The notes: generated by a model from the letters alone, not told the origin. Counted from the stretch's first letter, positions 21,835 through 48,282 are shown. The stretch is DNA of 51,063 nt from Candidatus Methanoplasma glyptotermitis (GCA_031267895.1 JAIRYF010000043.1:1-51063), one strand, 5' to 3'. Numbers and translations: made by a program.

Positions 21835-22242
21835 ACACGCCGGACCGAGGCGCACATTTTCAATGGTGTGCGCCGTAGGTCTGTCGGCAACTGCCACGGG
21901 TATGTTTCTGAGCAGCACCCGACAGGAATGAAATAACGGCGGGACTGCAGCATGCACGGATATGTTCGGAACGGCGGTCCGGGAAATCTGTGCTGACCCG
22001 GCGTCCGTGCTTTTTTCGGAGGCCGGTACATGATGCAAACTTTGAATTTTTTATACTCTGTCCCCAATTTACAATATGGAAGGTGTGTCCGGATACCGCC
22101 GATGTCTGAATTTGATTTCGAATAAGTGTTTAGCAGAGCAGAATACAGGCGGCAGAAGCAATCTAATTGGATTTATCATCCATCATATATTTATAGACGG
22201 TAACCTGTACATTGGATGGTTAATCCAAGCGGAGGAAATATA

Positions 22243-23388
22243 ATGGTAAATAACAAATTAATGGCAATTGCTGCCGCAGTTATTCTTGCGGCAGCAGCCG
22301 TCGGAGTTTATGCATTCCTTAACTCAGGGGAAACAGAGAAAAAAGCATTGTATAAACTGGGTGCCGTTGTCAGCGAGGTTGACATGGGAAAATGTTCCGC
22401 AACACCCGCAGTGATAGTCACAATAGAAGATATGTACAGAGACTACTACGGAGATCTGGTCAGCAGCAGTCTTACGCTTGCCGATGCAAAAGCGGATACA
22501 GAGTTCTGGAACGAGTATTGCAGTTGGGAACCTATGCTGAAAGCGAATCCCGACGGAACATACGATGTCAAGATAACAACGGGTACCAAGGGAACAGACA
22601 CAAAGAAGATTCCCGTGTCAGACACCGCTTTGGCCATGGGCACAATGTATTCGGAGACTCTGTACTATCTCATATGCACCGAATACGGTGAGGAGATGTA
22701 CTCAGATGAGAGTTACGCGAACCAAAATATATTGGACTACATGAACGGTACGATTGCCGGAGGAATGCAGTATTCATACTATGAGGACAACGATGTGGAC
22801 TATATGCTGAAGACTGTAAGCAAAGACTCTTACTATGACCTGGGAGTGAACTCCGTTCAGAGCCTGGACAGTGAGAAACTTACATCCGCCCTCAGGCAGG
22901 CTAATGAAAAGACAGACGGAAATGTCATATATTTCGCATCCGGGACCCGTATTTTGACAAGCGAACATTACAATAACAACACCGGACCATGCGATGCAAC
23001 AGAATCATACTATGCGTTCTTCTCTCCCTCGGAGATTAAAGAGGTCTTTCCGTCGATCCAGTGCATCGGACTCCTGATGGGATTCAGCGAAGAGACAGTC
23101 GACAAACTCATAGAAGACATACAGCTCAGACTGTACAGGGTCTACCACTCTGTCCAGGAGAAGACAGATGGGGGAGAGACAGTCAAAGCATATTGGGAAG
23201 GATCTTCCGGCAAGGCCATAAACTCGGCAATGGGAAAGGTCATACTGAACTTCCTGGGATTCGATACGTCGCTGCTGGACGGTGCCGAACATGATCTGGA
23301 ATCGTTACTGACCGACAAGCCCGTATACCTGGTATGGTACACGAACGACGGCCGCAACCTTGACGAGAGAATGAGAATAAACAATTAA
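22243..23388 (+). CDS. Secreted / membrane-anchored extracytoplasmic protein, putative ABC importer binding component
   Basis: SD ggaggaaatata then MVNNKLMAIAAAVILAAAAVGVYAF signal anchor; upstream of FecCD-type permease and ATPase; lacks a recognisable TroA-like motif. Confidence 0.6.
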   Translation: MVNNKLMAIAAAVILAAAAVGVYAFLNSGETEKKALYKLGAVVSEVDMGKCSATPAVIVTIEDMYRDYYGDLVSSSLTLADAKADTEFWNEYCSWEPMLKANPDGTYDVKITTGTKGTDTKKIPVSDTALAMGTMYSETLYYLICTEYGEEMYSDESYANQNILDYMNGTIAGGMQYSYYEDNDVDYMLKTVSKDSYYDLGVNSVQSLDSEKLTSALRQANEKTDGNVIYFASGTRILTSEHYNNNTGPCDATESYYAFFSPSEIKEVFPSIQCIGLLMGFSEETVDKLIEDIQLRLYRVYHSVQEKTDGGETVKAYWEGSSGKAINSAMGKVILNFLGFDTSLLDGAEHDLESLLTDKPVYLVWYTNDGRNLDERMRINN

Positions 23389-23411
23389 GGGCGACCCGCC
23401 CTGTTTTTTTT
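23389..23411 (+). terminator. Intrinsic-type terminator between binding-protein gene and permease
   Basis: GGGCG-ACC-CGCCC then TGTTTTTTTT. Confidence 0.65.
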
Positions 23412-23429
23412 ATTTCTGTGAGGATCGGA

Positions 23430-24482
23430 ATGATCGAACTCAAAACCGTTGAAGATCTGGAGAACTATCAACGGGCCGTATCGAGAAGGTCGAAATCGAT
23501 AGTTGCGGCGGCCGGTTTAGGTCTGATTCTGACGTTCCTGGTCACTTTGATGATCGGAAATTACAGTCTTTCAATAACTGACATACTCAGCATACTTTCC
23601 GGAATGTCAGGTGATTCCGTAGGAAGTTACATAATAATCGATGTAAGAGTTCCGAGACTCTTATGCTGTATCGCTGTCGGGGCGGCACTGTCAGCATCCG
23701 GATTGGTGATGCAGAGTCTTTTCAAAAACCCGATGGCATCGCCGTCCGTACTCGGGATATCTTCCGGTGCGGCATTCGGGGCGGCATTGGCCTTGGCATT
23801 CGGAATCGGAGGTTTTATGGGAAGGTATATGGTCCCGGGCATGGCGTTCATATTTTGCTTTCTTACGATGGGGGCAGTGTATATGCTCGCCAGAACGAAA
23901 TACGGTGTTGTGTCGACTACACTTTTGCTTGCGGGTGTGGCCATAGGTGCGTTCTTCAGCGGGATGCTGTCGCTGCTGCAGTATGTGGTAAACGAAAATG
24001 TCCTGTCAGGCATAGTGTATTGGACAATGGGGAGTTTCAACAACTGCGGATGGCAGTCATTCCAGCTTGCTATAATTCCTATCTCAGCGGGACTCTTGAT
24101 TATGCTGTTCAGCATAAAAGAACTGAATCTGATAGCCGCAGGAGAGGAACAGGCGGCCAACATCGGAGTCAATATCAAAAAGCTCAGGATACTGATGATA
24201 CTGGCGACATCCCTGGCAGTCGGAGGGTCCGTCGCGATAAGCGGAGTTATAGGATTCGTCGGGCTGATCGTACCGCACATCTTCAGGATGCTGGTCGGAC
24301 CCAACCACGCCCTTCTGATACCGCTCTGTGTTTTCGGAGGAGGAATATTCATGATAGCCATGGACACGATTGCAAAATCTGCATTCGCCATGGCCCTTCC
24401 GGTGGGAGTTCTGACATCTCTGATAGGCGCACCGTTTTTCATATACGTGATGAGAACAAGAAAAAATGAGATATGGGATTGA
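23430..24482 (+). CDS. FecCD-family ABC transporter permease (start 23418 or 23430)
   Basis: DVRVPRLLCCIAVGAALSASGLVMQSLFKNPMASPSVLGISSGAAFGA; GFVGLIVPHIFRMLVGPNH. Confidence 0.93.
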   Translation: MIELKTVEDLENYQRAVSRRSKSIVAAAGLGLILTFLVTLMIGNYSLSITDILSILSGMSGDSVGSYIIIDVRVPRLLCCIAVGAALSASGLVMQSLFKNPMASPSVLGISSGAAFGAALALAFGIGGFMGRYMVPGMAFIFCFLTMGAVYMLARTKYGVVSTTLLLAGVAIGAFFSGMLSLLQYVVNENVLSGIVYWTMGSFNNCGWQSFQLAIIPISAGLLIMLFSIKELNLIAAGEEQAANIGVNIKKLRILMILATSLAVGGSVAISGVIGFVGLIVPHIFRMLVGPNHALLIPLCVFGGGIFMIAMDTIAKSAFAMALPVGVLTSLIGAPFFIYVMRTRKNEIWD

Positions 24483-24483
24483 T

Positions 24484-25278
24484 ATGAGCCTGGAGATCAA
24501 AGAATTATGTTTTTCATACGACAGACGGGATGTTCTGTGCAAGATAGACCTAACCGCGGAGAGGGGAGAGATTGTGGGCATCATAGGTCAGAACGGGTGC
24601 GGCAAGACGACGCTTCTGAAATGTGTGAATTCATCTTTGGTCCCCGGTATGGGATCTGTGACGGTGGACGGCTGTCAGGTCTCGGAAATGTCACGGAGAG
24701 AGATCGCAAAAAAGATTGCGTTCGTTACGCAGACAACGAACGTAACATTTCCGTTTTCGGTTTATGACACGGTGACGATGGGCAGATACTCCAGAATGGA
24801 TGACGAAGGAAGAAAAGAAGGAGATGACGTGAGGGCAGTGTTCCAGGCGATGAAGGACACAGGAATCCTGAAATTCGCCGACAGACCGATAAATGAATTA
24901 AGCGGAGGAGAGAGGAGAAGAGTCATGATAGCGCGTGCGCTTGCTCAGGAACCGGAGATTCTGCTTCTCGACGAGCCGACGCTGCATTTGGACATAAACC
25001 ATCAGTTCGATCTTCTGGAAATGATACACAGGCTGTCAAAAGAGAAGAACATTCTGGTCCTGATAGTTACGCACGACATAGTGCTGGCCTCCAGATACTG
25101 CGACAGAATTGTAATAATGCAGAATAAGAAGATACACAAGATCGGCGATACGATAAAAGTCATGATCCCCGAGAACATGAAGGATGTCTTTTACATAGAG
25201 ACTGAAGTATCCGAAGACAGCAGATTTGGACTCAACGTATTGCTGATCGGAAAAGACAAAGACAGTCCCGAAGATTGA
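24484..25278 (+). CDS. FecE/BtuD-type ABC transporter ATP-binding protein
   Basis: IIGQNGCGKTTLLKCVN, LSGGERRRVMIARALAQEPEILLLDEPTLHLDI. Confidence 0.95.
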   Translation: MSLEIKELCFSYDRRDVLCKIDLTAERGEIVGIIGQNGCGKTTLLKCVNSSLVPGMGSVTVDGCQVSEMSRREIAKKIAFVTQTTNVTFPFSVYDTVTMGRYSRMDDEGRKEGDDVRAVFQAMKDTGILKFADRPINELSGGERRRVMIARALAQEPEILLLDEPTLHLDINHQFDLLEMIHRLSKEKNILVLIVTHDIVLASRYCDRIVIMQNKKIHKIGDTIKVMIPENMKDVFYIETEVSEDSRFGLNVLLIGKDKDSPED

Positions 25279-29835: not shown

Positions 29836-31320
29836 ATGAGATTACTATGTGCAGCCGCTGTTCTTCTGACTGTTATAGCAGGACTGTCTGCGATCGCACC
29901 GTTCGGTTCCGAAGCATCCTTTTCCGAATCGGACGGGGCTGTCTTTGAATACAAAACGGCAGGCAGCGGGACTGCGGGATCTCCGTACGAGAGTACGCTG
30001 CTCTCCGTATCATCTTCCGAGGAGGTCCTGACAATACCTTCCGCCCTGGAAGGATACCCCCTCAGGTACATAACGGGCGGAGGAGGATGCCTCGGAGTAA
30101 AGGCACTGGTCATACCGAAGACAGTCTTGCGCATATCTTCCGAAGCATTTTCCGGATTCGCGGATCTGGAAAGAGTGTATTTTACGGGAGACAGACCCGA
30201 TATGGAGCCGGCAGTCTTCCCTCCGGGCACGGAACTGCTGCATTCGCAGCCGTCCGCAGGATGGGGAGAGAGCTCTGCTGTGTATTACACGGGGACAGCA
30301 GCAGCCGGAGATTCCGTGATATCATATGCAATAATCGAGGGATATGCAACAGTGACCGGATTGGTACACGGAACCGATGTCAGAATCCCGAAAACGGTAT
30401 CCGGTCCCGGCGGGAGCGTTGCGGTTACAGAGTTGGATCAGGAGTCTTTCAGATACTCCGGAGTGGTTTCTGTCGTCCTTCCGGAAGGGATAAAGAGGAT
30501 AGGTACGAGAGCATTCTACGGATGCGAAACACTCGAGTCCGCAGTGATTCCCGATTCGCTTGAGACCGTATGCGACGAGGCGTTCAGAGAGTGCCCGTCT
30601 CTCGGGAACGTGAATCTCGGAAACATCCGTTTCATAGGATTCGAAGCGTTCAGGATGTGCGGTTCGTTCACGAGCCTGATCATTCCGGATACCGTTACGG
30701 TCATGAGAGAAGGAGCGTTCAGAGTATGTCCGGGCGTCAGAGTTCTGGTTATCGGGAGCGGGATATCCGAAATACCCGCATCGTGCTTCGATTATTACGC
30801 CGCACTCGAATCCCTTGAAATAAAAGGAAAAATTACGGTCGTCGGCAGTAATGCATTTTATGTTAGCCACGGATCGGATAACAGGCTGGTATCCGCAGAC
30901 CTGTCCGATGCAGTATCGATAGGAGGAAGCGCCTTCGTCAACCGCATTGCATTGGAGGAAGTGATACTGGGGAATTCTCTTGAAAGCATAGGAAGCGAAG
31001 CGTTTTCCGGATGCAGAGGAATAGTAAGCATAACTTTCCCGGAGACGCTGAAGAGCATCGGAGACAATGCGTTCTACGATTGCAGATCTCTTCGCGATGC
31101 GTATTTCCTGGGAAATATGCCGACGATCGGAGAAGGAGCGTTTTCCGGAGACACGGCCATCCACACGGATTCCGCGCACGCGGGTTCCTGGGCGGACTAC
31201 GGAGGAAATGTGGTAATCGACGGCAAATCGGGCACGGCCGTGCCGATCGCGGTTGCGATCGCATTCTCGGCCGCTGTCCTCTTCACTTTGCTGTTCATGC
31301 TCCGCAGGCACCGCAACTGA
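29836..31320 (+). CDS. BspA-like LRR surface protein with signal peptide and C-terminal TM anchor
   Basis: RIGTRAFYGCETLESAVIPDSLETVCDEAFRECPSL... repeats; VPIAVAIAFSAAVLFTLLFMLRRHRN anchor. Confidence 0.88.
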   Translation: MRLLCAAAVLLTVIAGLSAIAPFGSEASFSESDGAVFEYKTAGSGTAGSPYESTLLSVSSSEEVLTIPSALEGYPLRYITGGGGCLGVKALVIPKTVLRISSEAFSGFADLERVYFTGDRPDMEPAVFPPGTELLHSQPSAGWGESSAVYYTGTAAAGDSVISYAIIEGYATVTGLVHGTDVRIPKTVSGPGGSVAVTELDQESFRYSGVVSVVLPEGIKRIGTRAFYGCETLESAVIPDSLETVCDEAFRECPSLGNVNLGNIRFIGFEAFRMCGSFTSLIIPDTVTVMREGAFRVCPGVRVLVIGSGISEIPASCFDYYAALESLEIKGKITVVGSNAFYVSHGSDNRLVSADLSDAVSIGGSAFVNRIALEEVILGNSLESIGSEAFSGCRGIVSITFPETLKSIGDNAFYDCRSLRDAYFLGNMPTIGEGAFSGDTAIHTDSAHAGSWADYGGNVVIDGKSGTAVPIAVAIAFSAAVLFTLLFMLRRHRN

Positions 31321-31974: not shown

Positions 31975-32559
31975 ATGGAACTCATCGGAAAAATGGAACA
32001 TGGACCTGCCAGACGCTTCGGTGACGCCGAGGTATATCTGTTCCTCTCGCTGCTGAAAGAGGGCGGGAAGATAAGCAGACGGGGTGCCGCCGAGTATCTC
32101 GGTCTCGGGGAAGGGAGCGTAAGGAAGATCGCCGATATCGCGAAGAAGGCGGGGCTGATTCACGTGTTCCAAACGGGCATACGGATGTCCGATTATGGAG
32201 ATGAGTTTCTTTCTGGACTCCCGCTCCGAATGGTGAATATGGAACCGATCGATTCTGTAGTGGGGAGCAGCCAGCAGGCTGTGCTTGTGAAAGGCATGTC
32301 GTATAAGATAACCAACGGAATGATGCAGAGAGATGCGGGGATCCGCGCGGGGTCCTCCGGATGCACTACGTTCGTGATCCGGAACGGCCGCATGACCGTG
32401 CCCCCGGACTGGGATGCGGACAGGGAATCGCCGGAGCTGTCAGAACTTATAAGGAATGTGTCGGGTATGGCCGAGGACGATGTGCTTATAATAGGCGGGG
32501 ACGATGACCCCCCGAAAGCCAGGACAGCTGCTCTGACAGCCGCTTTGGAATTGCTGTGA
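31975..32559 (+). CDS. DUF4443-like archaeal wHTH protein
   Basis: ARRFGDAEVYLFLSLLKEGGKISRRGAAEYLGLGEGSVRKIADIAKKAGLI. Confidence 0.7.
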   Translation: MELIGKMEHGPARRFGDAEVYLFLSLLKEGGKISRRGAAEYLGLGEGSVRKIADIAKKAGLIHVFQTGIRMSDYGDEFLSGLPLRMVNMEPIDSVVGSSQQAVLVKGMSYKITNGMMQRDAGIRAGSSGCTTFVIRNGRMTVPPDWDADRESPELSELIRNVSGMAEDDVLIIGGDDDPPKARTAALTAALELL

Positions 32560-33159: not shown

Positions 33160-34533
33160 ATGAACGCACTGAGACTGAAACTTGCCATTTGTCTTGCGGT
33201 TGCGATGCTGGTCGCAGTCATCACTCCTGCGGCCGGGTTCACCGTAAGCGAAACTGATGAAAGACAGGGCGTGGTTATAGACTTCGGTTACTGGGAAACC
33301 TCCTGGATTCCGCTCTCGTTCTATGAGGGCGAGGATGCAGTATCCGCCCTCGAAGAAGCATGTTCCGTTATGGGGTGGGATGTCATTTTCAACAACGGAG
33401 AAGTCTTTTCGATTGACGGAGAGGTAAGCCTGGTTGGAGTAAAATGGGGATTTTACGTTCTTGACAAAGGATCATGGGCTTATGTCGAAGATCCAGGATC
33501 GCGTGACATATCCGGCGAATCTGCGATCTGCTGGGCCAGGGCATCCGGTGCAGACAGCGTAATTCCCGGTACCGACGCTACCGGTTTCATGTATTACAGT
33601 TACGGCACGGGCGGCAGATCTTTATCATCAGGTGCTGACCTGAGGGTAATATCGCTTGCCCCGTCGGTTACGGAGACAGTAGCATACGTGGGCGGTGCCG
33701 ATCTCATTGTCGGGACGGACATCTACAGCAATTATCCGGAAGAGGTGGCCGCCGGCCGCAGCGAAGGGAAAATATCGGTTGTCGGCGGATATACGGATCC
33801 GAACTACGAGTGGATTGTCCGTCTTGCGCCGGATATTGTTTTCTGCGACGGGGGAACCGGAGAACATGTTACCATCGCAGACCGTCTGAGAAAGTCGGGG
33901 ATAGACTGCGTGGTACTGTACAACGCAACGGATGTCGAATCGCTGTACGACAACATGTGGATAACAGCTGCCGCTCTCGGGCTTTCGGAGAACGCAAACT
34001 CTGTCATAACGGCGGCAAGGAGTACTTTTGATGTTCTCAGGGGAGTGATAGGGCTGCAACCGGTGAAGCGGGTATTCGTTTCGTTATCCGCAGATCCTTC
34101 GCCGTGGACATCCGGTTCGGATACTTTCATGTCAGACATGGTTTCCGGACTTTCTGGATCGAACATATTCGACACGGCATCATCGTGGTTTATGGTTTCC
34201 AAAGAACAAATACACACAAAACAGCCGGAAGTGATTATCATCATCGGCGATTCCAAACCGTACAGCGAAGATTCATACATGAGATTGCTGGACAGCCTGG
34301 ATCCTCTATGGAAGGAGACTCCGGCCTACCGTAACGGAGAAGTTTACGTCTTTTCAGGAAAATCAGCCGATATTCTGTCCCGTCCCGGTCCGAGGCTGGC
34401 TGAGGCCGCAGAGCTTATAGCGAAAATCCTGCACCCCGGCCCGTTCACTGTGAGAGACCCAATGGACGTGGTCCCGAAGTACTTCGGTGACGATTACAGC
34501 TATTATCTTAAGTATCAGAGGGAGAGACTGTGA
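33160..34533 (+). CDS. BtuF/FecB-type substrate-binding protein with extra N-terminal DUF4430-like domain
   Basis: Signal peptide; VKWGFYVLDKGSWAYVED; then LRVISLAPSVTETVAYVGGADLIVGTDIYSNYPEE (TroA-like fold). Confidence 0.88.
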   Translation: MNALRLKLAICLAVAMLVAVITPAAGFTVSETDERQGVVIDFGYWETSWIPLSFYEGEDAVSALEEACSVMGWDVIFNNGEVFSIDGEVSLVGVKWGFYVLDKGSWAYVEDPGSRDISGESAICWARASGADSVIPGTDATGFMYYSYGTGGRSLSSGADLRVISLAPSVTETVAYVGGADLIVGTDIYSNYPEEVAAGRSEGKISVVGGYTDPNYEWIVRLAPDIVFCDGGTGEHVTIADRLRKSGIDCVVLYNATDVESLYDNMWITAAALGLSENANSVITAARSTFDVLRGVIGLQPVKRVFVSLSADPSPWTSGSDTFMSDMVSGLSGSNIFDTASSWFMVSKEQIHTKQPEVIIIIGDSKPYSEDSYMRLLDSLDPLWKETPAYRNGEVYVFSGKSADILSRPGPRLAEAAELIAKILHPGPFTVRDPMDVVPKYFGDDYSYYLKYQRERL

Positions 34534-36365
34534 AACGCATTGTACTGATTTTTGTGATTGCCGTGCTGGTGTTTCCGCCGGTATCCGGTACGTCATCCGC
34601 TGTCGACGGCGGAAAGGTCCTTCTTGATCTCGGTAACGGAAGGACATTCTGGTACCCGGCAGAAGGGAACACATACGGTTCCGCGGCGGAGATGTGCGCC
34701 TTGCAGTACGGGATTGATGCGGATGTGTCCGGTTCTGTTGTTATTGACGGCATCACATCCTCCGCAGCGGGAGCGCATTGGTCGTTCTACATCTGGGACG
34801 GAAAATGGGTGTACCGCCCCGATCTGTCTTCATCGTCGCCGTACTCGGGAGGGACCTTCGCTCTCGCATTCTACCCCGACGGAATCTTCCCGGCAGTCAC
34901 TCCGGACGAACCGTTTGCATGGACGCAGTTCGGAGGTTCGTCATCTGCTATGGGCGAATCGTACTCTGGAGGTCCGGAAGAACCGGCTCTTCCGGTAGAA
35001 TGGTATAAGACATACACCACAGGATACATCGATTCGGGGATAGTCGCCGCAGGAGATCTGTTATACCACACGACCGGAGGGGCCTTCGGAGTAGGCGGTA
35101 TCGATAAGGATCCATGGGTATACTGCATAAACAGATACGACGGATCGGAGGTCTGGAAGTTTCACGGAGTCTACGGAACGGGATACGAAGTCACAACTCC
35201 CCTGATAGTCGACAGCATGCTCATTGTGACATCCACAAGCGGAAACGTTTATCTGTTTGACCGTTTCACAGGGGAAGTCCTCGATACCGTCAGCATTCCG
35301 TTCGAACCGCCGATGGACCCTTCCGGCGATATCCTCTGGGACGGAAGGGTTTTCGTGACAGGCGGAACAACTCCGGTGTATGATTCGGGCGCAGTGTTTT
35401 TCGGCTCTGCTGACGGAAAGGTATATTCATATGCTGTCTCCGAAGAGTCGGGCTTCAGGCAGATCTGGACTTATGATCCTTCTGTCGGAAAAGGCTGTTT
35501 CTATTATCATGCGCCGACCGTCGCCGGCATAGATGGCAAAAGGATTCTGTTCATAGGCAACTATGACGGTTTCGTCCATGCTTTGGATGTATCCACAGGC
35601 AAAGCTGTATGGGTCAGACAGGTCGTGGATCTGAGCGCAGACAATATCCCTCAGCCCGGAACCCCAGGTTCGGCCGCATCGATATCGGTGAGTCCCAAGG
35701 GAGACATCCTGCTGGTCGGGTGTACGGACGGGGGCATGGGATCCATTACGGGATTCCTCCTCGGTTTGGATCCGAAAACAGGAACATCTCTGACAGCGGA
35801 CGGAAAAGAGTGGAGGATCGATGTGCTTGCGACATCCCCTGCCGTGTCCTATGACGGGTTCTATACATACGTTTCGCAGTCGGCCGCAGGAGCATCTTCT
35901 CTTGAAAATGCCGACGGCACCTCGGAAGCAGTGTCAGCAGCAATATACAAGTTCGATTGGAGCGGGAAGGTAATTTGGCACACCCGGACGTACCAGCTTA
36001 TGAAGGCTCCGCTGACACTCGCTTCCGGTGTCATATACAGCATGGACTATTCCGCCGGAGGCTTCTGGCCCACGGGAGGCGGCCTGACAGCTGTAAGTGC
36101 GGATGACGGGCACGAGATATGGAGGGTGCTGCTTGCCCCGTACTCCGCAGATTCATATTGTATGGTGCAGCCGACCGTTATTGACGGCAGAGTATACGTC
36201 GGCAATGATTACGGTGCGATGTACTGTCTCTCCGGCAATGCCGGACCGAGTTCCGAGGGGACGGATATAGTAGCTTTGCAGACCGTCGGTTTTGCGCATT
36301 GGTCGTGGGTGATGATCGCACTCATTTCGGTTATTGCTGCGGCACTGCTGATAAGATACTACTGA
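34530..36365 (+). CDS. PQQ-like beta-propeller surface protein with N-terminal DUF4430-like domain and C-terminal TM helix
   Basis: GTG start overlapping upstream TGA; AHWSFYIWDGKWVYRPD; repeats such as VYCINRYDGSEVWKFHG, VHALDVSTGKAVWVRQ, LTAVSADDGHEIWRV. Confidence 0.85.
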   Translation: MKRIVLIFVIAVLVFPPVSGTSSAVDGGKVLLDLGNGRTFWYPAEGNTYGSAAEMCALQYGIDADVSGSVVIDGITSSAAGAHWSFYIWDGKWVYRPDLSSSSPYSGGTFALAFYPDGIFPAVTPDEPFAWTQFGGSSSAMGESYSGGPEEPALPVEWYKTYTTGYIDSGIVAAGDLLYHTTGGAFGVGGIDKDPWVYCINRYDGSEVWKFHGVYGTGYEVTTPLIVDSMLIVTSTSGNVYLFDRFTGEVLDTVSIPFEPPMDPSGDILWDGRVFVTGGTTPVYDSGAVFFGSADGKVYSYAVSEESGFRQIWTYDPSVGKGCFYYHAPTVAGIDGKRILFIGNYDGFVHALDVSTGKAVWVRQVVDLSADNIPQPGTPGSAASISVSPKGDILLVGCTDGGMGSITGFLLGLDPKTGTSLTADGKEWRIDVLATSPAVSYDGFYTYVSQSAAGASSLENADGTSEAVSAAIYKFDWSGKVIWHTRTYQLMKAPLTLASGVIYSMDYSAGGFWPTGGGLTAVSADDGHEIWRVLLAPYSADSYCMVQPTVIDGRVYVGNDYGAMYCLSGNAGPSSEGTDIVALQTVGFAHWSWVMIALISVIAAALLIRYY

Positions 36366-36374
36366 GGTTTTTGC

Positions 36375-37517
36375 ATGGAAAATGAGGAAGAAACAAGAAT
36401 GAAACGTCTGATGAGTAAGGCCAAAAAGGGATTGGACGGCCTGAAAAAGGACATGGAAGATGCAGATGAAAGTGAAATCTCCCGTAAGAAGAGACGTTTC
36501 GCAGTGATCTGTGTTTTCGGGATTATCATGTCGGTCATCGCGTTTCTGATATCAATTTCGATATCGTCGGGAGGAGTCATACCCGTAAGCGAAGCACTTT
36601 CCGCAATGTTCTCGGCGATCGGCAAAGGCGGGGAGAATCTGGACGTGGTGGAACTTTACATCTACCAGGCAAGGCTGCCCAGGGCAATGGCCGCCATAGG
36701 CGTGGGGGCCGGACTGTCGGTGGCAGGATGCATGTATCAGGCGATAATCAGAAATCCGCTGGTGGATCCGTATATCACGGGAGTGTCGTCGGGCGCGGGG
36801 TGCTTTGCCGTATCGATCGTTGCGGTCGGTCTGTCGTTTCCGTTCATAGGATCAGGTTCCCTGTATCTTATCCCGGCCGCCGCCGTGATCGGAGGGCTTA
36901 TAGCTTTCGGAGCCACGATGACCGTTGCGGAAGGTGCCGGAGGTTCCGCCACCAATTACATACTGTCCGGAGTAATTGTGGGATTTGCTTTTGCCTCAGT
37001 GCAGACGATCTTCCTGTCTCTCGCCAAAGATAATCTCACCAACATTATGTGGTGGCTGTACGGTTCTTTTGCCAATATCACATGGGAGAACGCATGGATC
37101 GTATTCGTACCGTCTTTGGGAATATCCGTGGCAGCCATGGTCTGGGCGAGAGAGTTCAACCTGTTCATGATGGGAGAAGAACAGGCAAAACAGTTGGGAA
37201 TGAATGTGAAACTGTTCAAAAGGACGATGATGATAGTCGCATCCGTTCTCACTGCCGTATGTGTGGCGTTCGTAGGAATAATCGGATTTGTGGGTTTGGT
37301 TGTGCCTCACGCATGCAGAATGGCCCTCGGAGGAGACCACAGACTTGTTATGCCTGCCAGCATAGTGATCGGTGCGATGCTGATGCTCTTTGCAGATCTA
37401 GTTGCGAGAACTGCTATGATACCCTACGAGCTGCCCGTCGGGGCGATCACCGCGATGGTCGGTACTCCGGTGTTCGCATGGATGCTCATAAAGAAGGGGA
37501 GGGAGTATGATGGGTAA
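36375..37517 (+). CDS. FecCD/BtuC-family ABC permease
   Basis: QARLPRAMAAIGVGAGLSVAGCMYQAIIRNPLVDPYITGVSSGAG; GFVGLVVPHACRMALGGDHR. Confidence 0.94.
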   Translation: MENEEETRMKRLMSKAKKGLDGLKKDMEDADESEISRKKRRFAVICVFGIIMSVIAFLISISISSGGVIPVSEALSAMFSAIGKGGENLDVVELYIYQARLPRAMAAIGVGAGLSVAGCMYQAIIRNPLVDPYITGVSSGAGCFAVSIVAVGLSFPFIGSGSLYLIPAAAVIGGLIAFGATMTVAEGAGGSATNYILSGVIVGFAFASVQTIFLSLAKDNLTNIMWWLYGSFANITWENAWIVFVPSLGISVAAMVWAREFNLFMMGEEQAKQLGMNVKLFKRTMMIVASVLTAVCVAFVGIIGFVGLVVPHACRMALGGDHRLVMPASIVIGAMLMLFADLVARTAMIPYELPVGAITAMVGTPVFAWMLIKKGREYDG

Positions 37518-38298
37518 TCTGCTGGAAATCAGGGGATTAAACAAAACATTCGGAGACTTTGATGCTCTCAGCGACATAGAATTTGCTGTCGGCAGAGGGA
37601 AGATGATCGGACTCATAGGCCCCAACGGATGCGGAAAATCCACGATGATGAAATGTATATGCAAAGTCCACGAACCATCCTCGGGGACGATAACCATCGA
37701 CGGGAACGACGTAGGCACAATGAGGCCTTCGGAGGTTGCCAGGCTCGTAGCCAGCGTCCCTGCGGAGGCAGGACCGACATTCGGGATGTCCGTGATGGAT
37801 ATGGTGATGCTCGGAAGGTATCCGTACATCAACAAGATATGGTGGGAAGATCCGGAGGATGAGAGGATCGCCGCCGAGGCACTCAGAACCTTCGGCATAT
37901 ACGATCTGAGGAGAAAGCAGGTATCTCTGCTTTCGTCGGGGGAGAGGTCCCGGGCACTGATAGCCAAGGCGTATGTTCAGGAGCCCAAGCTTATGCTGGT
38001 GGACGAACCGACCGCACATCTCGATATGAAATACAAACTGCAGGTCATGGAATACCTGAGATCTATGTCCAAAACGGACATGACCGTCATGGTGGCAGAG
38101 CACGACATTTCCCTGATGGCAAGGTACTGCGATCTGTGCGTTATTATGAGAAAGGGGCGTATCGTCACGGTCGGCGATCCGAAGAAGGTTATCGATGCCG
38201 ATCTCATAAAAAATGTTTATGAGGTGGATTCCCGCGTAGGCCTCGATGAGGATGGCGAAATATACGTTCTGCCGAAAAGGTACGTCAGCGGAACATGA
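37507..38298 (+). CDS. BtuD/FecE-family ABC ATP-binding protein
   Basis: LIGPNGCGKSTMMKCICKVH; LSSGERSRALIAKAYVQEPKLMLVDEPTAHLDM. Confidence 0.95.
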   Translation: MMGNLLEIRGLNKTFGDFDALSDIEFAVGRGKMIGLIGPNGCGKSTMMKCICKVHEPSSGTITIDGNDVGTMRPSEVARLVASVPAEAGPTFGMSVMDMVMLGRYPYINKIWWEDPEDERIAAEALRTFGIYDLRRKQVSLLSSGERSRALIAKAYVQEPKLMLVDEPTAHLDMKYKLQVMEYLRSMSKTDMTVMVAEHDISLMARYCDLCVIMRKGRIVTVGDPKKVIDADLIKNVYEVDSRVGLDEDGEIYVLPKRYVSGT

Positions 38299-38461: not shown

Positions 38462-38767
38462 TCACACGAGTACCAGCAATCTGCTGAATCTGTAGTGCGT
38501 CCTCATTCGCACGATGTTTACTATGCCGGCGTATTCTCTGTCCGGTGATTCTCTCACTTCGTATACCAGACGGTTTTTGGAATTCAGACGTCTCGAATAC
38601 ATGTTTGAGGCCTGTCCGTGAAGCTTTTTGAACGGAGAAGGTGTCCGGAATGGGTTATTCTCCAGTATCTTGATTAATTCCCGGGCCTTCCTGTTTAGAT
38701 TGTCATCTTTAAGCATCATGAGGTCCCGCTCGGCCGCTTTGGTGACAGTCACAAGATATTTTTCCAA
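38462..38767 (-). CDS. YoeB/RelE-family toxin (Txe-like)
   Basis: ERDLMMLKDDNLNRKARELIKILENNPFRTPSPFKKLHGQASNMYSRRLNSKNRLVYEV. Confidence 0.85.
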   Translation of the reverse strand: MEKYLVTVTKAAERDLMMLKDDNLNRKARELIKILENNPFRTPSPFKKLHGQASNMYSRRLNSKNRLVYEVRESPDREYAGIVNIVRMRTHYRFSRLLVLV

Positions 38768-38997
38768 TCGAACACCTTCAGTTCGGATGTAGGGGTTTCT
38801 CTTGCTTCCTTGATTGCATCCAGCATGTCCGGGTCAGACAGGATGTATAATGTTTCTGTGATCTCATCCCAGTATTCTTCGCTTATCAGGACCATGTTTC
38901 CCTTTTTGGAAGTGACGACTACTCGTTCATTCTCCAAAACAGAATCCATAACGCTGAACAGCTCGTTGCGAGCCTGTGTCACATTCATGGTGGGCAT
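38749..38997 (-). CDS. Phd/YefM-family antitoxin
   Basis: MPTMNVTQARNELFSVMDSVLENERVVVTSKKGNMVLISEEYWDEITETLYIL; overlaps toxin by 19 nt. Confidence 0.85.
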   Translation of the reverse strand: MPTMNVTQARNELFSVMDSVLENERVVVTSKKGNMVLISEEYWDEITETLYILSDPDMLDAIKEARETPTSELKVFDWKNIL

Positions 38998-39419
38998 GCT
39001 TCGGTATTTACAGAACGACATATAAATGTACGCTTTTACGGCATAAACGGTTTGTCTAGATTCCGATAACAATTCATGACAGCATCCGATTGCACCTTCC
39101 TCCTTTCCGTCTGGTACGAACCGACTGCGGCTTTGTTTCACCTATGCCTCCGATAATCATGATGCCGTATACGGGACCGTCTCCTTTGCCGAATCAGAGA
39201 AATACAATGTACCGCGGCTCGCGCATGCGTTATTCCTGGACAGTCTTGTGCCGCCGGAATAGGAGCAGAATTGTCCGTTCCCAGCGGTATGCATATGCGG
39301 AATGAGGCAAAATACCGAGTAACGTACGCATGAAACTTCTTTAACAGGAAACCGTTACTCCCTGTGTTCCGATAAAGCAGAGAAACGGCGGCTGCAAACA
39401 TGGTATCGGGTGTGTCTAA

Positions 39420-41160: not shown

Positions 41161-41784
41161 TTACTCTTTGTAATATATCATCGCATTGCAGATGGCGGCG
41201 GCTATGCCGCTGCCGCCTTTCCTCCCCGCGGCGACTATGTACGGGACATTGGATTTCATAATCATTTCCTTAGATTCCGTCACGTTGACGAACCCTACCG
41301 GCACGCCGATCACCAGGCCCGGATTGATTTTGCCTTCTTCGATCATGCCGTGCAGGGTTATCAGTGCCGTAGGAGCGTTCCCCACGGCTATGATCAGAGG
41401 CCCTTTTATGCCAGCCGCCTGTTCCATGGAAACGGCGGCTCTTGTGCAGTTCCTGGATTTCGCCTCGGCGATGACATCATCATCGCTTATGAAGCACTTG
41501 ACATTTCCTCCGTAACTTCCCAATCTTTTCTTGTTTATGCCTGATGCGGCCATCTTTGTGTCCGTTACGACAGTGGCACCCTTTCTGATCAGATCCACCC
41601 CGATATTCTCGGCGTTATTCGAAAATACAAGGCTGTCCGCATAATCAAAGTCGGCGGATGTGTGTATACATCTCTTAACAATCGAAAACTTGGGTTCCGG
41701 CCAAGTTCTTCCGTTCAGTTCGGATGTTATTATCTCCATGCTTTTTTTCTCTATGTCTTCGGGTTTCAATATTTCGCAAACCAT
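41161..41784 (-). CDS. cbiC: Cobalt-precorrin-8 methylmutase
   Basis: RCIHTSADFDYADSLVFSNNA; VVTDTKMAASGI; VGNAPTAL; GVPVGFVNVTESKEMIM. Confidence 0.95.
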   Translation of the reverse strand: MVCEILKPEDIEKKSMEIITSELNGRTWPEPKFSIVKRCIHTSADFDYADSLVFSNNAENIGVDLIRKGATVVTDTKMAASGINKKRLGSYGGNVKCFISDDDVIAEAKSRNCTRAAVSMEQAAGIKGPLIIAVGNAPTALITLHGMIEEGKINPGLVIGVPVGFVNVTESKEMIMKSNVPYIVAAGRKGGSGIAAAICNAMIYYKE

Positions 41785-41786
41785 CT

Positions 41787-42530
41787 TTACGGTCCCCCTA
41801 TATCATATCCTCTGGGGGTGATCATCCTGCCGCCGGATACATAGGTCTGGCTGTTGCCCACTATTACTGTGCAGAACATGTCCACCGTATCCGGGTTTAT
41901 GCGGCCCAAGGCCGTGACCGTTACTTCTTGGTCCTTTCTGCCTATATTTCTTGCAATACCGACGGGCGTGTCCGGGGATCGGTATTTTAGAAGGATCAGG
42001 ACTGCCTGTTCCAGATGCTCTGTTCTTTTCTTGCTTTTAGGATTATACAGTACTGTGACCATATCTCCCGCACCGGCACAGTCCACTCTTTTCATTATCA
42101 GATCTATCGGTGTCAGAAGGTCCGACAGACTTATAAGTGCGGCATCATGCATAAGCGGGGCACCGAGCAGCGAAGCGGCGGCGGATGCTGCAGTTATTCC
42201 CGGAACGATCTCTATGTCTATTTCGGCCTTCATTTCGTCTGCTGTCTGATAGATAATGCCGGCCATCCCGTATATCCCGGAATCGCCGCTGCTGACCATG
42301 GCAACGGTTTTTCCGGACATGGCATCCTCCACAGCCATCCTGCATCTGTCGATTTCTTTCATCATGCCCGTGCTTTTGTATGTTTTACCGGGAAAGAATT
42401 CCTTTAAAATGTCCGTGTAGACGGTGTAGCCAGTGATGATATCCGCGCCTTCTATTGCATCGGCGGCTCTGATGGTCATATCTTCTTTGCTTCCGGGACC
42501 GAACCCGACAACCGAAAGTTTACCTCTCAT
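41787..42530 (-). CDS. cbiH: Cobalt-factor III / precorrin-3B C17-methyltransferase
   Basis: VVGFGPGSKEDMTIRAADAIEGADIITGYTVYTDIL; VSSGDSGIYGMAG; ALISLSDLLTPID. Confidence 0.93.
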   Translation of the reverse strand: MRGKLSVVGFGPGSKEDMTIRAADAIEGADIITGYTVYTDILKEFFPGKTYKSTGMMKEIDRCRMAVEDAMSGKTVAMVSSGDSGIYGMAGIIYQTADEMKAEIDIEIVPGITAASAAASLLGAPLMHDAALISLSDLLTPIDLIMKRVDCAGAGDMVTVLYNPKSKKRTEHLEQAVLILLKYRSPDTPVGIARNIGRKDQEVTVTALGRINPDTVDMFCTVIVGNSQTYVSGGRMITPRGYDIGGP

Positions 42531-43285
42531 TTCTCTTCCCCTTCCCTGTATCCTGTGGTGAATTGTCTGTCATAGAGTTTTGACAGACTGTATTCGTCGC
42601 CGAGGAATCTGCCCACGACTGTGAGGGCTGTTTTTTCTATATTCTCGTTTTTGACCTTATCGGCGATGTCGGTAAGATCGCCCTTCAGTATCTTCTGTTC
42701 GGGCCAGGTCGCTTTGTATACCACTGCGACAGGAGTCTTGGGATCGTAACCTCCGGCTATCAGGGTCGAGCAGAGTTCGTCTATGAACCCTATGCTGAGA
42801 AATACAGCCATTGTGGAATTATGTCTGGCAAGATCTATGAGTTTCTCCTTGGGAGGCATAGGCGTACGTCCTTCCATTCTTGTTATTATCACAGTCTGAC
42901 TGATATCCGGGAGCGTGTACTCCTTTTTCAGGACTGCCGCAACGGCGAATAAGGAACTAACTCCGGGTACGACTTCAAACTCAATGCCGAGTTTTTCGAG
43001 TCTGTCCATCTGTTCTCTCACGGCTCCGTATATGGACGGATCTCCGGTGTGCACACGTACCACTCTGAGTCCCCTGCCCGCTGATTCTCTGATGACATTT
43101 ATGACCTCATCCAAATTCATATACGCGCTGTTGTGTATTACGGCGGAGGGTTTCGCACCCTTTAATATATCAGGGTTAACGAGCGATCCGGCGTATATTA
43201 TCACATCGGCACGGTCTATCAGTTTTCTTCCTTTGATTGTTATCAGTTCGGGGTCGCCGGGTCCGGCTCCTATGAAATGAATTAT
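42527..43285 (-). CDS. cbiF: Cobalt-precorrin-4 C11-methyltransferase (non-canonical ATA/ATT start)
   Basis: Full N-term IIHFIGAGPGDPELITIKGRKLIDRADVIIYAGSLVNPDIL recovered 27 codons upstream of the first ATG (43204). Confidence 0.85.
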   Translation of the reverse strand: MIHFIGAGPGDPELITIKGRKLIDRADVIIYAGSLVNPDILKGAKPSAVIHNSAYMNLDEVINVIRESAGRGLRVVRVHTGDPSIYGAVREQMDRLEKLGIEFEVVPGVSSLFAVAAVLKKEYTLPDISQTVIITRMEGRTPMPPKEKLIDLARHNSTMAVFLSIGFIDELCSTLIAGGYDPKTPVAVVYKATWPEQKILKGDLTDIADKVKNENIEKTALTVVGRFLGDEYSLSKLYDRQFTTGYREGEEK

Positions 43286-43989
43286 GGTCTCATTCCTCCG
43301 TTCTTTTTGATTATGACTGTTGTAAAATAACCGTATTTTCTGTCAGGATCGAACCTGCCTACGTATTGATCCTCCGTACTGACATTGCTTACGACAATGG
43401 CTCTGTCATGCGGAATGTCCAATTCGTCCATCATTGAGGCCAGTATCTTCATGGAGTTGAATGCTTTCATTACTACTATATTATCGAAATCTCTCAGTGC
43501 TTTGAACACTCGGTCGTTCCTCGCGGCCATGGAGACAACGGACAATCCCTCGTTATCTGTCAGCAGAGGGATGCCTGCCTCCGAAGCACCGCTGCAGAAA
43601 GATGTCACCCCCGGTATCGTTTCTGTCTCGTACCCGAGTTCCGATATATCCTGACTTACATGCATGTATGTGCTGAATACGGTGGCATCTCCTAGATTTA
43701 TCATAGAAACATCGCTTCTATCCAATAGTGAGGCCATTTTTCCGATCGCATCTTTGTAGTTGCTTTCTCTCACAGATGGGTCGGGGTTCATCTCGAACAG
43801 CATCTCCTCCGTTCTCTTTCCGGATATGTCGATACATTTCTTTACTATGCCGAGGGCCGTGCTGTCCTCTCCGTATGATCTTACGGGATATGCGATAACA
43901 TCCGAAGACTCTATCCGTTTTTTTGCTTTTATTGTCATCAGTTCCGGATCTCCGGGTCCGACACTCACTCCGTAAAGTTTTCCGACCAT
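43282..43989 (-). CDS. cbiL: Cobalt-factor II / precorrin-2 C20-methyltransferase
   Basis: KLYGVSVGPGDPELMTIKAKKRIESSDVIAYPV; INLGDATVFSTYMHV. Confidence 0.94.
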   Translation of the reverse strand: MVGKLYGVSVGPGDPELMTIKAKKRIESSDVIAYPVRSYGEDSTALGIVKKCIDISGKRTEEMLFEMNPDPSVRESNYKDAIGKMASLLDRSDVSMINLGDATVFSTYMHVSQDISELGYETETIPGVTSFCSGASEAGIPLLTDNEGLSVVSMAARNDRVFKALRDFDNIVVMKAFNSMKILASMMDELDIPHDRAIVVSNVSTEDQYVGRFDPDRKYGYFTTVIIKKNGGMRP

Positions 43990-44115
43990 ACAGTACTCCC
44001 AGACATGGATAGATTACCAAGTATTATAATTTGGCACATACATCCAATGGTTGTTATGCTCTGGAAAGATATTGATAATGCCGAGCAAGAGAACGACACT
44101 GCGGGTACCGGCGGC

Positions 44116-45246
44116 ATGTACGTTGCAGTCAACGGCAGGAGACTGAGGTGCGGATACACCACAGGTTCGTGTGCCGCTGCAGCCTCCAAATAGGCTGCTG
44201 TTATTCTGCTCGGGGGCGCGAAGAGCGACAGAACAGAAATAATAACTCCTAACGGAACTCTTCTTTCGCTGAAGGTCGAGGATATCAAAATATCCGAGAA
44301 TACAGTATCGTGTGCGGTCAGGAAGGATGGCGGTGACGATGCGGATGCTACCATCGGAGCACTCGTGTATTCATCCGTATCCGGGAGAACAGACGGCAAA
44401 ATCACTATAGACGGAGGGGAGGGAGTCGGACGCATAACGAGAAAAGGTCTGGATCAGCCTGTGGGAAGTGCGGCCATAAACAGCGTTCCCCGAAGTATGA
44501 TCAAAGAAGTACTGGACGATGTCTGCGTAAGCATGAATCACTCCGGCGGACTAAGCGCAGTGATCTCCGTTCCCGAGGGGATCAGAATAGCAAAGAAAAC
44601 ATTCAACCCAAGACTTGGTATTGAAAACGGCATCTCGATACTGGGAACGACAGGTATAGTCGAACCTATGAGCGAGAGGGCACTGATAGATACCATAAGA
44701 ACAGAACTGAACATGAGGAAAGCATCAGGGGACGATAACATTCTCGCGGTTCCCGGCAACTATGGCAAGAACTTCTCGGAAGAAACGGAGGGTATGGACA
44801 GCGACCTCGGGGTTAAATGCAGCAATTTCATAGGAGAGACGATAGACCATGCGGCAAAACTTGGTTTCAGGGGATTCCTTCTGGTCGGAAATCTCGGCAA
44901 AATGGTGAAGCTGGCCGGAGGCATAATGAATACTCATTCCCGCTGGGCTGACTGCCGGATGGAGATCCTCTCGGCGAACTCGGTATCAGCCGGATCCGAT
45001 GCCGGGACGGCCAAGAAGATAATGTCCTGTATATCGACAGACGATGCCTTGGATGTATTGAATGAAGCGGGTGCGATGGACAAAACGATGCAAGAAATAA
45101 TGGGTAAGATAGCTTTCCATCTGAATCACAGGGCCGGGGAGAAAATGCAGGCCGAATGTATAGTGTTCTCGTCGAAATACGGAAAACTCGGAGAGACTCC
45201 CGGAGCAAGGGAGCTTTTAGAAAGGATAAAAGGTCAGGTGCGGTGA
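44116..45246 (+). CDS. cbiD: Cobalt-precorrin-5B C1-methyltransferase with in-frame TAG at 44191-44193
   Basis: MYVAVNGRRLRCGYTTGSCAAAASK-TAG-AAVILLGGAKSDRTEI...GITRKGLDQPVG-type continuation in one frame; start could be as early as 44005. Confidence 0.88.
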
Positions 45247-46286
45247 TGAAGATACGGATCATAGCTTTTTCGGGAAGGGGCTGCGAACTCGGAGCGAAAG
45301 TGTGCGGAGTATTGGGCGGGCACGAATGCAGGCTGTACTCGAAGACCTCTGCGGACATCATCGGCATCGAGAAAGCCGAGGGATCGGTGTCAGACTGGAC
45401 AAGGGAGGCATTTTCGGCTGCAGATGCGATATTATTCATCGGTGCGGCAGGCATAGCCGTCAGATGTATCTCGCTGTTTGTAAAAAACAAGACAGAAGAC
45501 CCTGCAGTGATATCGATTGACGAAAAGGGGCAGTTTGTAATACCTCTTCTTTCCGGCCACATAGGCGGAGCAAACGACCTTGCGAGATATATCTCCGGGA
45601 AGATCGGCGCAGTCCCAGTCATAACGACCGCCACAGACATCCACGGAAAATTCTCTGTGGATTCGTACGCCGGGAGGCATAATATGCACATCGGGAGTAT
45701 GCTGCTGGCAAAAGAAATATCATCCGTTATAGTCAGCGGCGGGAAGATCGGACTGATATCAGATGTTCCTATATCGGGCAGTATACCGCCGGAATTGGAC
45801 CTCAACGGAAAGGAGGACCTGGGGGTTTTCATATCATACGGCAGGTGCGAGGGTCCTTTCGCGAAAACACTGAAACTCACGCCCAGATGCCATGTGCTTG
45901 GGATCGGATGCAGAAGGGGAATCTCTGCAGACAGTATCGGGACGCTCGTTAACGAGGTACTCGAGAGGGAAAACATATCTCCGAGAAGCGTGAAGGCCGT
46001 AGCAAGCATAGATATAAAAAGCAATGAAGCAGGGCTTCTGGAATTCTCCGAGAGGATGGGAATCAAACCGATATTCTTCTCGCCTGACGAACTGGGGTCC
46101 ATCCCGGATATGGAATTCACGCCGTCGGATACGGTGAAGTCGGTCACCGGCGTGGACAACGTATGCGAGAGGGCAGCCTATGCAGCATCCCGGAGCGGAG
46201 AAATAATAACAAGGAAGACGGCAAAGGACGGAGTGACACTTGCCATTGTGAGAGAACCGTTCTCCGCAGACCTGACGGAAGGATGA
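45246..46286 (+). CDS. cbiG: Cobalt-precorrin-5A hydrolase
   Basis: FIGAAGIAVRCISLFVKNKTEDPAVISIDEKGQFVIPLLSGHIGGANDLARYIS; LGIGCRRGISADSI. Confidence 0.95.
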   Translation: MKIRIIAFSGRGCELGAKVCGVLGGHECRLYSKTSADIIGIEKAEGSVSDWTREAFSAADAILFIGAAGIAVRCISLFVKNKTEDPAVISIDEKGQFVIPLLSGHIGGANDLARYISGKIGAVPVITTATDIHGKFSVDSYAGRHNMHIGSMLLAKEISSVIVSGGKIGLISDVPISGSIPPELDLNGKEDLGVFISYGRCEGPFAKTLKLTPRCHVLGIGCRRGISADSIGTLVNEVLERENISPRSVKAVASIDIKSNEAGLLEFSERMGIKPIFFSPDELGSIPDMEFTPSDTVKSVTGVDNVCERAAYAASRSGEIITRKTAKDGVTLAIVREPFSADLTEG

Positions 46287-46287
46287 C

Positions 46288-48282
46288 ATGCAAAACGTAG
46301 ACAGAGTAATAGTGTTCGCGGGCACAACGGAAGGCAGAAAAATCACGGAATATCTGGGAAATGCCGGAATTGATGTGCTTGCATGCGTGGCAACCGAGTT
46401 CGGAATGCAGTTCATAAAGGAGAATAATCATGTAAGAGTATCATCGGAGAGGCTCGGCGGAGAGGGTATGAGACGCATAATGAAGGAAGGCTGCTCCTGT
46501 GTTATAGATGCAACGCATCCGTACGCGGCTGTCGTTACCGGAAAGATCGCGGCAGCATGCGAAGATACCGGATCTGAGTACATCCGCCTGGTACGCGCGG
46601 AGAGCCGCAGACACAGCAGCATAATCTCCGTCCCGGATGTATCATCCGCTGTCGAGTACCTCAAAGGCACCGAAGGCAATATACTCGTCACGACCGGAAG
46701 CAAGGAACTCGTCAAGTACACAGCGATCGAGGACTACCGCAACAGAGTATTCGCGAGAGTGCTGTCTGTGCCGACAGCATCACAGACGTGTGCAGAAATG
46801 GGATTCGAAGGGAAGAATTTATTCTGTATGCAGGGTCCTTTTGGCGAAGAACTCAACTACGGTCTCCTGAAACAGACCGATGCAAAATACATGGTGACGA
46901 AGGATTCCGGAGAGCCGGGAGGATTCGAGGAGAAAATGAGAGCCGCCGCCAGAGCAGGGACAAAAGTAATACTGATTTCCAGGCCGAAAGAACCGAAAGG
47001 CTATGGGTTCTGGGACCTAAGGGAGATGCTTGGCAGGAGATTCGGTATAAAACCGGAGACAGAAATTCCTTTCCGACGAAAGATCACAATAGCTGGCATT
47101 GGAATGGGGAACGATGATACAGTCACCGTCGGTGTCCGCAGAGTCATAGACGAAGCCGATCTCCTGGTGGGTGCGGAAAGGATGGTCACGTCCGTATCAA
47201 AAGGACAAGACTCTCTGACTGAATACAGGCCGGGTCCGGTGATCAAATACCTGAGGGAGAATCCAGAATATAAAAGAATAGTGATATTAGTGTCAGGAGA
47301 TACAGGATTCTGCAGTGCGGCCAAGAAGCTGATGGACGAGATAGACGATTCTATTTTTGATGTCGATGTGAAATGCGGGGTCTCGTCTATCGCTTACTTC
47401 TGTTCGCTGACAGGGTCATCGTGGGATGATGCATTTTTAATGAGTGCGCACGGCCGGGATGCGAACATAGTCGGTACCGTATGCACGAACAGAAAAGTCA
47501 TCGTTCTGCTTGACGGCAGAGAAGGAGCAAAGATAATGTTCAAGGAGTTCGCGGAATACGGCCTCAATGACGTGATTGTCACGATCGGTCAGGATCTCGG
47601 CTCTGCCGACGAAAGAATATCTGTGGGAAATCCATCCGATCTCGAGGGGACAGAATTCGGCAGCCTGTGCATCGCGATGATAGAAAATCCGAATCCAGAA
47701 AAAAGAAATCCCATTGGGATACCGGATGGATTGTTCATCCGGGGCGATGCACCCATGACGAAAGAGGAGGTCAGATCTCTGTCTGTAGTGAAACTGAAAC
47801 TTGAAAGAGATTCAGTGCTTTTCGATATCGGTGCCGGAACGGGGTCCGTTGCTGTCGAGTCGGCATTGTCCGTGCCACACGGCAAGGTTTATGCGATCGA
47901 AAGGGAGAAGAATGCAGCCGACATCATCCGGCAGAACAAGATAAAGTTCAGAACGCATAACCTGGAGGTTGTGGAGGGACATGCGCCGGAGGCATTGGAG
48001 AATCTTCCGTCACCGTCGCATGTGTTCATCGGAGGATCATCCGGAAATCTGAAAGAGATAATGGAGGTGTGCCTTCGCCTTAATCCGAAAGTCAGATTCG
48101 TGATTAATGCAATAACTTTGGAAACAGTCTCTGAAATGGTCCGCTGTTTCGGCGAACTAGATATCGACGAAGAGGGGCTGATATCGGTGAACATCTCAAG
48201 ATCGAAAAGGACCGGCGGATACCATCTCATGAATGCCTGCAATCCGGTATATATCGCTGTTTGCACCGGCAGGGGTCAATAA
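46288..48282 (+). CDS. Fusion protein CbiJ-CbiE-CbiT (cobalt-precorrin-6A reductase / precorrin-7 C5- and C15-methyltransferase)
   Basis: N-term VIVFAGTTEGRKITEYL, IDATHPYAAVVT (CbiJ); ITIAGIGMGNDDTVTVGVRRVIDEADLLVGAERM (CbiE); MTKEEVRSLSVVKLKLERDSVLFDIGAGTGSVAVESAL (CbiT). Confidence 0.93.
   Translation: MQNVDRVIVFAGTTEGRKITEYLGNAGIDVLACVATEFGMQFIKENNHVRVSSERLGGEGMRRIMKEGCSCVIDATHPYAAVVTGKIAAACEDTGSEYIRLVRAESRRHSSIISVPDVSSAVEYLKGTEGNILVTTGSKELVKYTAIEDYRNRVFARVLSVPTASQTCAEMGFEGKNLFCMQGPFGEELNYGLLKQTDAKYMVTKDSGEPGGFEEKMRAAARAGTKVILISRPKEPKGYGFWDLREMLGRRFGIKPETEIPFRRKITIAGIGMGNDDTVTVGVRRVIDEADLLVGAERMVTSVSKGQDSLTEYRPGPVIKYLRENPEYKRIVILVSGDTGFCSAAKKLMDEIDDSIFDVDVKCGVSSIAYFCSLTGSSWDDAFLMSAHGRDANIVGTVCTNRKVIVLLDGREGAKIMFKEFAEYGLNDVIVTIGQDLGSADERISVGNPSDLEGTEFGSLCIAMIENPNPEKRNPIGIPDGLFIRGDAPMTKEEVRSLSVVKLKLERDSVLFDIGAGTGSVAVESALSVPHGKVYAIEREKNAADIIRQNKIKFRTHNLEVVEGHAPEALENLPSPSHVFIGGSSGNLKEIMEVCLRLNPKVRFVINAITLETVSEMVRCFGELDIDEEGLISVNISRSKRTGGYHLMNACNPVYIAVCTGRGQ

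Follow-up and report, generated by a model that had tools for sequence, protein, structure and literature searches.

Transcobalamin-like SLBB domains of prokaryotes were described in 2007 by Burroughs et al. (PMC1796856): one of these is joined to a beta-propeller, the operons also encode CbiO, CbiQ and a further SLBB protein, and B12 scavenging was put forward as the function of these systems. In Bacteroides, the seven-bladed surface propeller BtuG lids BtuB and hands B12 over (PMC10404256). The archaeal order Methanomassiliicoccales produces methane from methylated compounds via corrinoid proteins. A 2024 genome survey of this order reported expanded BtuC clades and btuCDF genes located beside adhesin-like proteins, a possible capture mechanism, and associated the BtuC expansion both with competition for B12 and with low-methane sheep (PMC10804542).

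The window, a stretch of 51,063 nts of Candidatus Methanoplasma glyptotermitis from a genome of 1.72 Mb in 72 contigs, contains an operon that probably encodes a type II ABC importer taking up corrinoids, either cobamides or cobamide precursors. Capture outside the cell would fall to two proteins that each carry a transcobalamin-beta-like SLBB domain, and one of the two, the propeller protein, would be a surface receptor tethered to the permease (Table 1). The initial annotation had listed genes for a BtuF-type binding protein, a propeller protein, BtuC and BtuD, in this order, and all four were confirmed by family profiles. The combination of a FecCD permease, an ABC ATPase and a PF01497 binding protein in a single operon is the make-up of a type II ABC importer. 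The description of the genes as an overlapping operon holds for the binding protein and propeller genes (4 bp) and for the BtuC and BtuD genes (11 bp) but not for the propeller and BtuC genes, which are separated by a gap of 9 bp. Hydropathy places a hydrophobic segment at residues 3-21 of the binding protein. The propeller protein, as proposed, has the features of a secreted protein with a membrane anchor, namely a signal peptide (residues 4-22) and a C-terminal transmembrane (TM) helix. Because the binding protein (81 of 234 bits) and the permease (213 of 334 bits) both score below the NCBIfam equivalog cut-offs for BtuF and BtuC, the importer is referred to as BtuFCD-like and not as a BtuFCD orthologue.

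Table 1. Features of the importer operon and of its surroundings (positions in the window)
Feature	Position	Strand	Details
DUF4443 winged-helix protein, possible regulator	31975-32559	+	PF14544 E 2.1e-30
BtuF-type substrate-binding protein	33160-34533	+	457 aa; N-terminal signal/anchor; PF01497 E 2.2e-28
Transcobalamin-beta/DUF4430-like (SLBB) domain, binding protein	33256-33567	+	profile A1 E 2.5e-29; AlphaFold pLDDT 87.3; Foldseek top matches transcobalamin
Surface propeller protein	34530-36365	+	611 aa; GTG start; PF13360 PQQ_2 E 1.4e-17; AlphaFold pLDDT 91.4, pTM 0.89
SLBB/DUF4430-like domain, propeller protein	34605-34898	+	profile A1 E 3.7e-25; hhalign E 3.9e-14 against the domain of the binding protein
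PQQ/BamB-like beta-propeller	35001-36230	+	strands at residues 158-567 in AlphaFold model; Foldseek
Propeller C-terminal TM helix	36297-36353	+	hydropathy (590-608); helix 591-610 in AlphaFold model
BtuC/FecCD-type permease	36375-37517	+	380 aa; PF01032 E 3.4e-84
BtuD-type ATPase	37507-38298	+	263 aa; PF00005 E 1.5e-29
Corrin-ring biosynthesis cluster (context)	41161-48282	cbiC, H, F, L on -; cbiD, G, J-E-T on +	NCBIfam matches

Several neighbouring genes were recorded in passing. A second FecCD-type importer (22216-25278) comprises a permease (23418-24482) and an ATPase (24466-25278), and is preceded by a gene for a 390-aa exported protein that matches no NCBIfam family and gives no Pfam hit over the cut-off; this protein may represent a novel type of binding protein. 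A BspA-type leucine-rich-repeat surface protein is encoded near the importer operon (29836-31320), and a homologue sharing 43% identity adjoins BtuD in a related locus (L034:3402-4880); BspA-type proteins being frequent here, this association may be due to chance. On the minus strand, two small overlapping genes (38462-39141) resemble, when the sequence is inspected by eye, a YoeB/RelE-type toxin and a Phd/YefM-type antitoxin.

The first two proteins of the operon were initially described as sharing an N-terminal domain. In agreement with this, the N-domains of the binding protein and of the propeller protein matched each other both in a pairwise BLASTP comparison (E 6e-6) and in the profile-profile alignment (Table 1; probability 98.4). 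An alignment of 34 N-domains contains three invariant residues, D16, G18 and W71. The proposed likeness to DUF4430 was likewise recovered in a profile-profile comparison with archaeal proteins scoring above the DUF4430 cut-off (hhalign E 1.6e-9, probability 96.3), in which four unrelated profiles taken from the operon as negative controls gave E values of at least 0.1. A direct comparison with PF14478 gave a divided answer: DUF4430 was not called by Pfam in the proteins of the window, although homology to it was detected between profiles. One propeller N-domain from another genome was matched directly by PF14478, at a score under the Pfam cut-off (E 6.9e-4, 20.7 of 23.8 bits), and the Pfam scan of the 34 N-domains returned scattered weak matches, one of them to DUF4430 (E 0.047). 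Searching the PDB sequences with the domain profiles retrieved designed propeller repeats and unrelated chains, and no transcobalamin. At the level of sequence, the BLASTP and profile-profile comparisons support the homology of the two N-terminal domains to each other and to DUF4430.

Structural modelling extended this relationship to animal B12 carriers. When the AlphaFold model of the binding-protein N-domain was searched against 350,542 PDB chains using Foldseek, the best 14 matches were all transcobalamin or haptocorrin, including the isolated human transcobalamin beta domain (5no0 and 5np4, the latter with cyanocobalamin), and intrinsic factor appeared at rank 16. The values themselves are modest (best E 1.7e-3, TM-score about 0.5), hence the weight of this result rests on the consistency of the ranking. 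The model further contains a beta-hairpin after the helix, seen in the domain of the binding protein, which is the element order of the transcobalamin clade. According to Burroughs et al. (2007, PMC1796856), this hairpin is typical of the clade and touches B12 in transcobalamin. In the model of the propeller protein, the N-domain has the same element order as that of the binding protein.

The operon is conserved. The N-domain is present in 59 of the 75 good-quality genomes of the Methanomassiliicoccales; for the phylum as a whole, the count is 50 out of 298. These are the unbiased figures for its distribution. The gene order (binding protein, propeller, BtuC, BtuD) is kept across the order. 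For a closer view of the operon, 80 loci were picked from the GTDB genome collection by similarity to fused propeller-BtuC proteins; these relatives come from the guts of termites and mammals and comprise 'Candidatus Methanoplasma' along with other members of the Methanomassiliicoccales. Among the 76 loci with a visible propeller, 61 encode an in-frame propeller-BtuC fusion and 15 a separate propeller followed by BtuC, a ratio biased towards the fused form because fused proteins were used as the query. Of the remaining 4 loci, 2 are truncated by a contig end. In each of the 62 propeller loci whose upstream sequence is long enough, a gene for an SLBB-bearing binding protein precedes the propeller. 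The fused proteins are about 930-1,060 aa long, and their predicted topology consists of a signal peptide, the ectodomain, a TM helix, a basic cytoplasmic linker and the first BtuC helix, so that the TM helix of the propeller protein sits between propeller and permease. As claimed, the propeller and transporter genes are thus conserved together and, in this query-biased set, the propeller is mostly fused to the permease. Neither a lack of resemblance between the two N-domains or to DUF4430, nor a propeller gene unlinked to the transporter, was encountered.

The genome of the window itself carries a second copy of the system, in fused form, on contig 64. In a tree of BtuC sequences, the window operon falls in a mostly unfused clade of which the fused L103 is the sister, while the fused L139 is nested inside, implying that the fusion state changed more than once. 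In 9-10 loci, which form a single clade of the BtuC tree, a second, bare BtuC directly follows the fused one (e.g., L099, L101, L116, L130 and L133), and this arrangement suggests a heteromeric permease.

Individual loci deviate from the common pattern. The fused proteins of L110 (6001-9606) and L112 (98-3715) reach about 1,200 aa, the domain profile matching again between propeller and BtuC. In L127 (4729-7918) and L140 (4391-7870), the SLBB-bearing binding protein directly precedes BtuC and BtuD, and no propeller is found. In L095 (5977-9187; Candidatus Methanomethylophilus sp. 1R26), two overlapping frames take the place of a single propeller-BtuC frame, owing either to a frameshift or to an assembly error. 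Many relatives also encode a third small SLBB-like protein of about 170-320 aa just upstream of the binding protein (e.g., L066:3729-4571, L107:3656-4603, L109:4010-4522 and L074:1314-2099), which is absent from the window operon.

The fold of the propeller raises the question of its role. Its Foldseek matches include BamB and tetrathionate hydrolase (E ~1e-17), and this fold, together with the PQQ_2/BamB-like profile, would be expected of a PQQ-type enzyme or of a BamB-like assembly factor merely encoded in the same operon. Such a role is highly improbable and was rejected on the basis of the fusion, since in most relatives the propeller is covalently joined to BtuC. In addition, the PQQ dehydrogenase domain PF01011 stays under its cut-off (18.8 of 26.7 bits), pqqE is reported to be absent in the order, and a BamB role needs an outer membrane. 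To our knowledge, these archaea lack an outer membrane.

A role in transport could be structural rather than ligand-binding. The SLBB domains and the propeller might serve as docking modules, the paired domains holding the binding protein on a permease-anchored propeller raised towards the S-layer. The same domain indeed occurs on both partners and often on the third small upstream protein, beta-propellers are common docking scaffolds, and extracellular SLBB proteins forming surface complexes were suggested by Burroughs et al. (PMC1796856). However, the domain of the binding protein possesses the transcobalamin-type hairpin insert that contacts B12, and the binding proteins of L127 and L140 retain their SLBB domain without any propeller; docking is a possible but rather unlikely function compared with capture of the ligand.

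Support for a corrinoid ligand comes mainly from the gene neighbourhood of the relatives. Genes for a CobC/CobD-like aminotransferase, CbiB and CbiZ adjoin 19, 18 and 16 of the 80 loci, respectively, where 0.6 loci would be expected for a single-copy gene, although the genomes are related and the loci consequently non-independent. CbiZ and CbiB form an archaeal corrinoid-salvage route (PMC3541065), and such neighbours of the fused loci indicate corrinoid salvage. The designation of the importer as corrinoid-type is thereby upheld for the fused clade, but CbiB and CbiZ neighbours are absent from the unfused clade that includes the window operon. For the latter, support consists of the N-domain itself and of the cbi cluster, which was correctly placed near the operon and starts 3 kb downstream. 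A cobalamin riboswitch was sought and none was found.

These features leave room for an importer of the same design whose ligand is heme, another tetrapyrrole or a metal chelate, to which the SLBB domains would have adapted. FecCD permeases and PF01497 proteins transport many metal chelates, and the NCBIfam scores for the BtuC, F420-0 and FecC types lie close together. Moreover, a cbi cluster is present in the genome itself, and for archaea with such a cluster Burroughs et al. (PMC1796856) suggested that the ligand could be another metabolite; the lack of CbiB and CbiZ neighbours in the paralogue clade of the window points the same way. A non-corrinoid ligand is nevertheless unlikely, given that transcobalamin is the top structural match of the binding-protein N-domain, that the sister clade has CbiB, CbiZ and CobC neighbours, and that both a need for B12 and the BtuC expansion have been published for the order (PMC10804542).

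The analysis demonstrates the homology of the domains and their modelled fold, the gene order, the fusion, a predicted topology and a neighbourhood of corrinoid genes; corrinoid binding by the SLBB domains and the propeller, the stoichiometry and the handover order are inferred. The propeller would be a type I membrane protein held at the BtuC permease and, being covalently joined to it in most relatives, could act as a permanently docked receptor or lid. The binding protein, combining an SLBB domain with a BtuF cleft, would be a second, mobile carrier. Corrinoids would be taken up at the surface by the SLBB domains, then set above the BtuC pathway by the propeller and/or the binding protein, and ATP hydrolysis by BtuD would drive import. 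Where the propeller and BtuC are one protein, the ligand could equally well pass straight to the permease as move from propeller to BtuF to BtuCD.

The propeller is also found with another class of transporter. In further families of the order, and in other parts of the Thermoplasmatota, an SLBB-propeller gene is followed by genes for a DUF4430 protein, EcfT, a double EcfA and EcfS. The full propeller/DUF4430/ECF set occurs in ten loci; EcfT, EcfA and EcfS adjoin the propeller in relatives such as L047, L048, L183 and L188, and none of them lies next to the propeller in the window. Several of these ECF-type operons are preceded by a DUF4443 winged-helix gene, as is the window operon. Since the SLBB-propeller occurs with both ECF and type II ABC transporters, a single surface module is paired with two unrelated importer types. 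A broader proposal, which we judge evenly poised between right and wrong, is that of a portable SLBB-propeller corrinoid receptor coupled to ECF and type II ABC importers, forming a covalent ectodomain of the permease in the ABC class and giving rise, in some lineages, to a heteromeric permease of a propeller-bearing and a bare BtuC, in convergence with BtuG-BtuB of Bacteroides.

The systems of Burroughs et al. (2007, PMC1796856) share with the present one the domain clade, export, a beta-propeller partner, a transporter operon, a second paralogous SLBB protein and a predicted role in B12 scavenging. They differ in that the transporter is of the CbiO/CbiQ (ECF-like) type, whereas here it is BtuFCD-like, with the domain on BtuF and, in relatives, the propeller on BtuC. 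No mention of SLBB-BtuF or propeller-BtuC fusions was found in the part of that study consulted, and a literature search covering few subscription journals found no report of either fusion or of the heteromeric permease, nor any work on DUF4430 in archaeal transport. The initial view that this importer type had not been described must therefore be narrowed, as the association of SLBB, beta-propeller and CbiO-CbiQ has been known since 2007. The 2024 survey concerns the same organisms and transporter family, and the terms 'propeller' and 'fusion' are absent from its main text (PMC10804542). If correct, corrinoid import by this system would explain how Methanomassiliicoccales capture scarce corrinoids.

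The E. coli BtuCD-F system shares its permease, ATPase and binding-protein families with the window operon but lacks an SLBB domain, a propeller and any receptor tethered to the permease. BtuG/BtuB (PMC10404256) offers the closest working model, likewise a surface beta-propeller at a B12 transporter, of which the present propeller would be the archaeal counterpart, although BtuG sits on an outer-membrane TonB-dependent barrel. As BtuG is missing from the best 50 of 1,926 Foldseek matches to the propeller, it is treated here as a functional analogue. The fused proteins would, for their part, offer a fixed 1:1 receptor-permease unit useful for structural work. Lastly, the modelled N-domain shares its fold with the C-terminal beta domain of three animal proteins, transcobalamin, haptocorrin and intrinsic factor, in which that domain is combined with an alpha/alpha toroid, whereas here it is joined to a BtuF fold or a propeller; hence, if the proposed reading holds, a domain that animals use for holding B12 would be found on an archaeal ABC importer.
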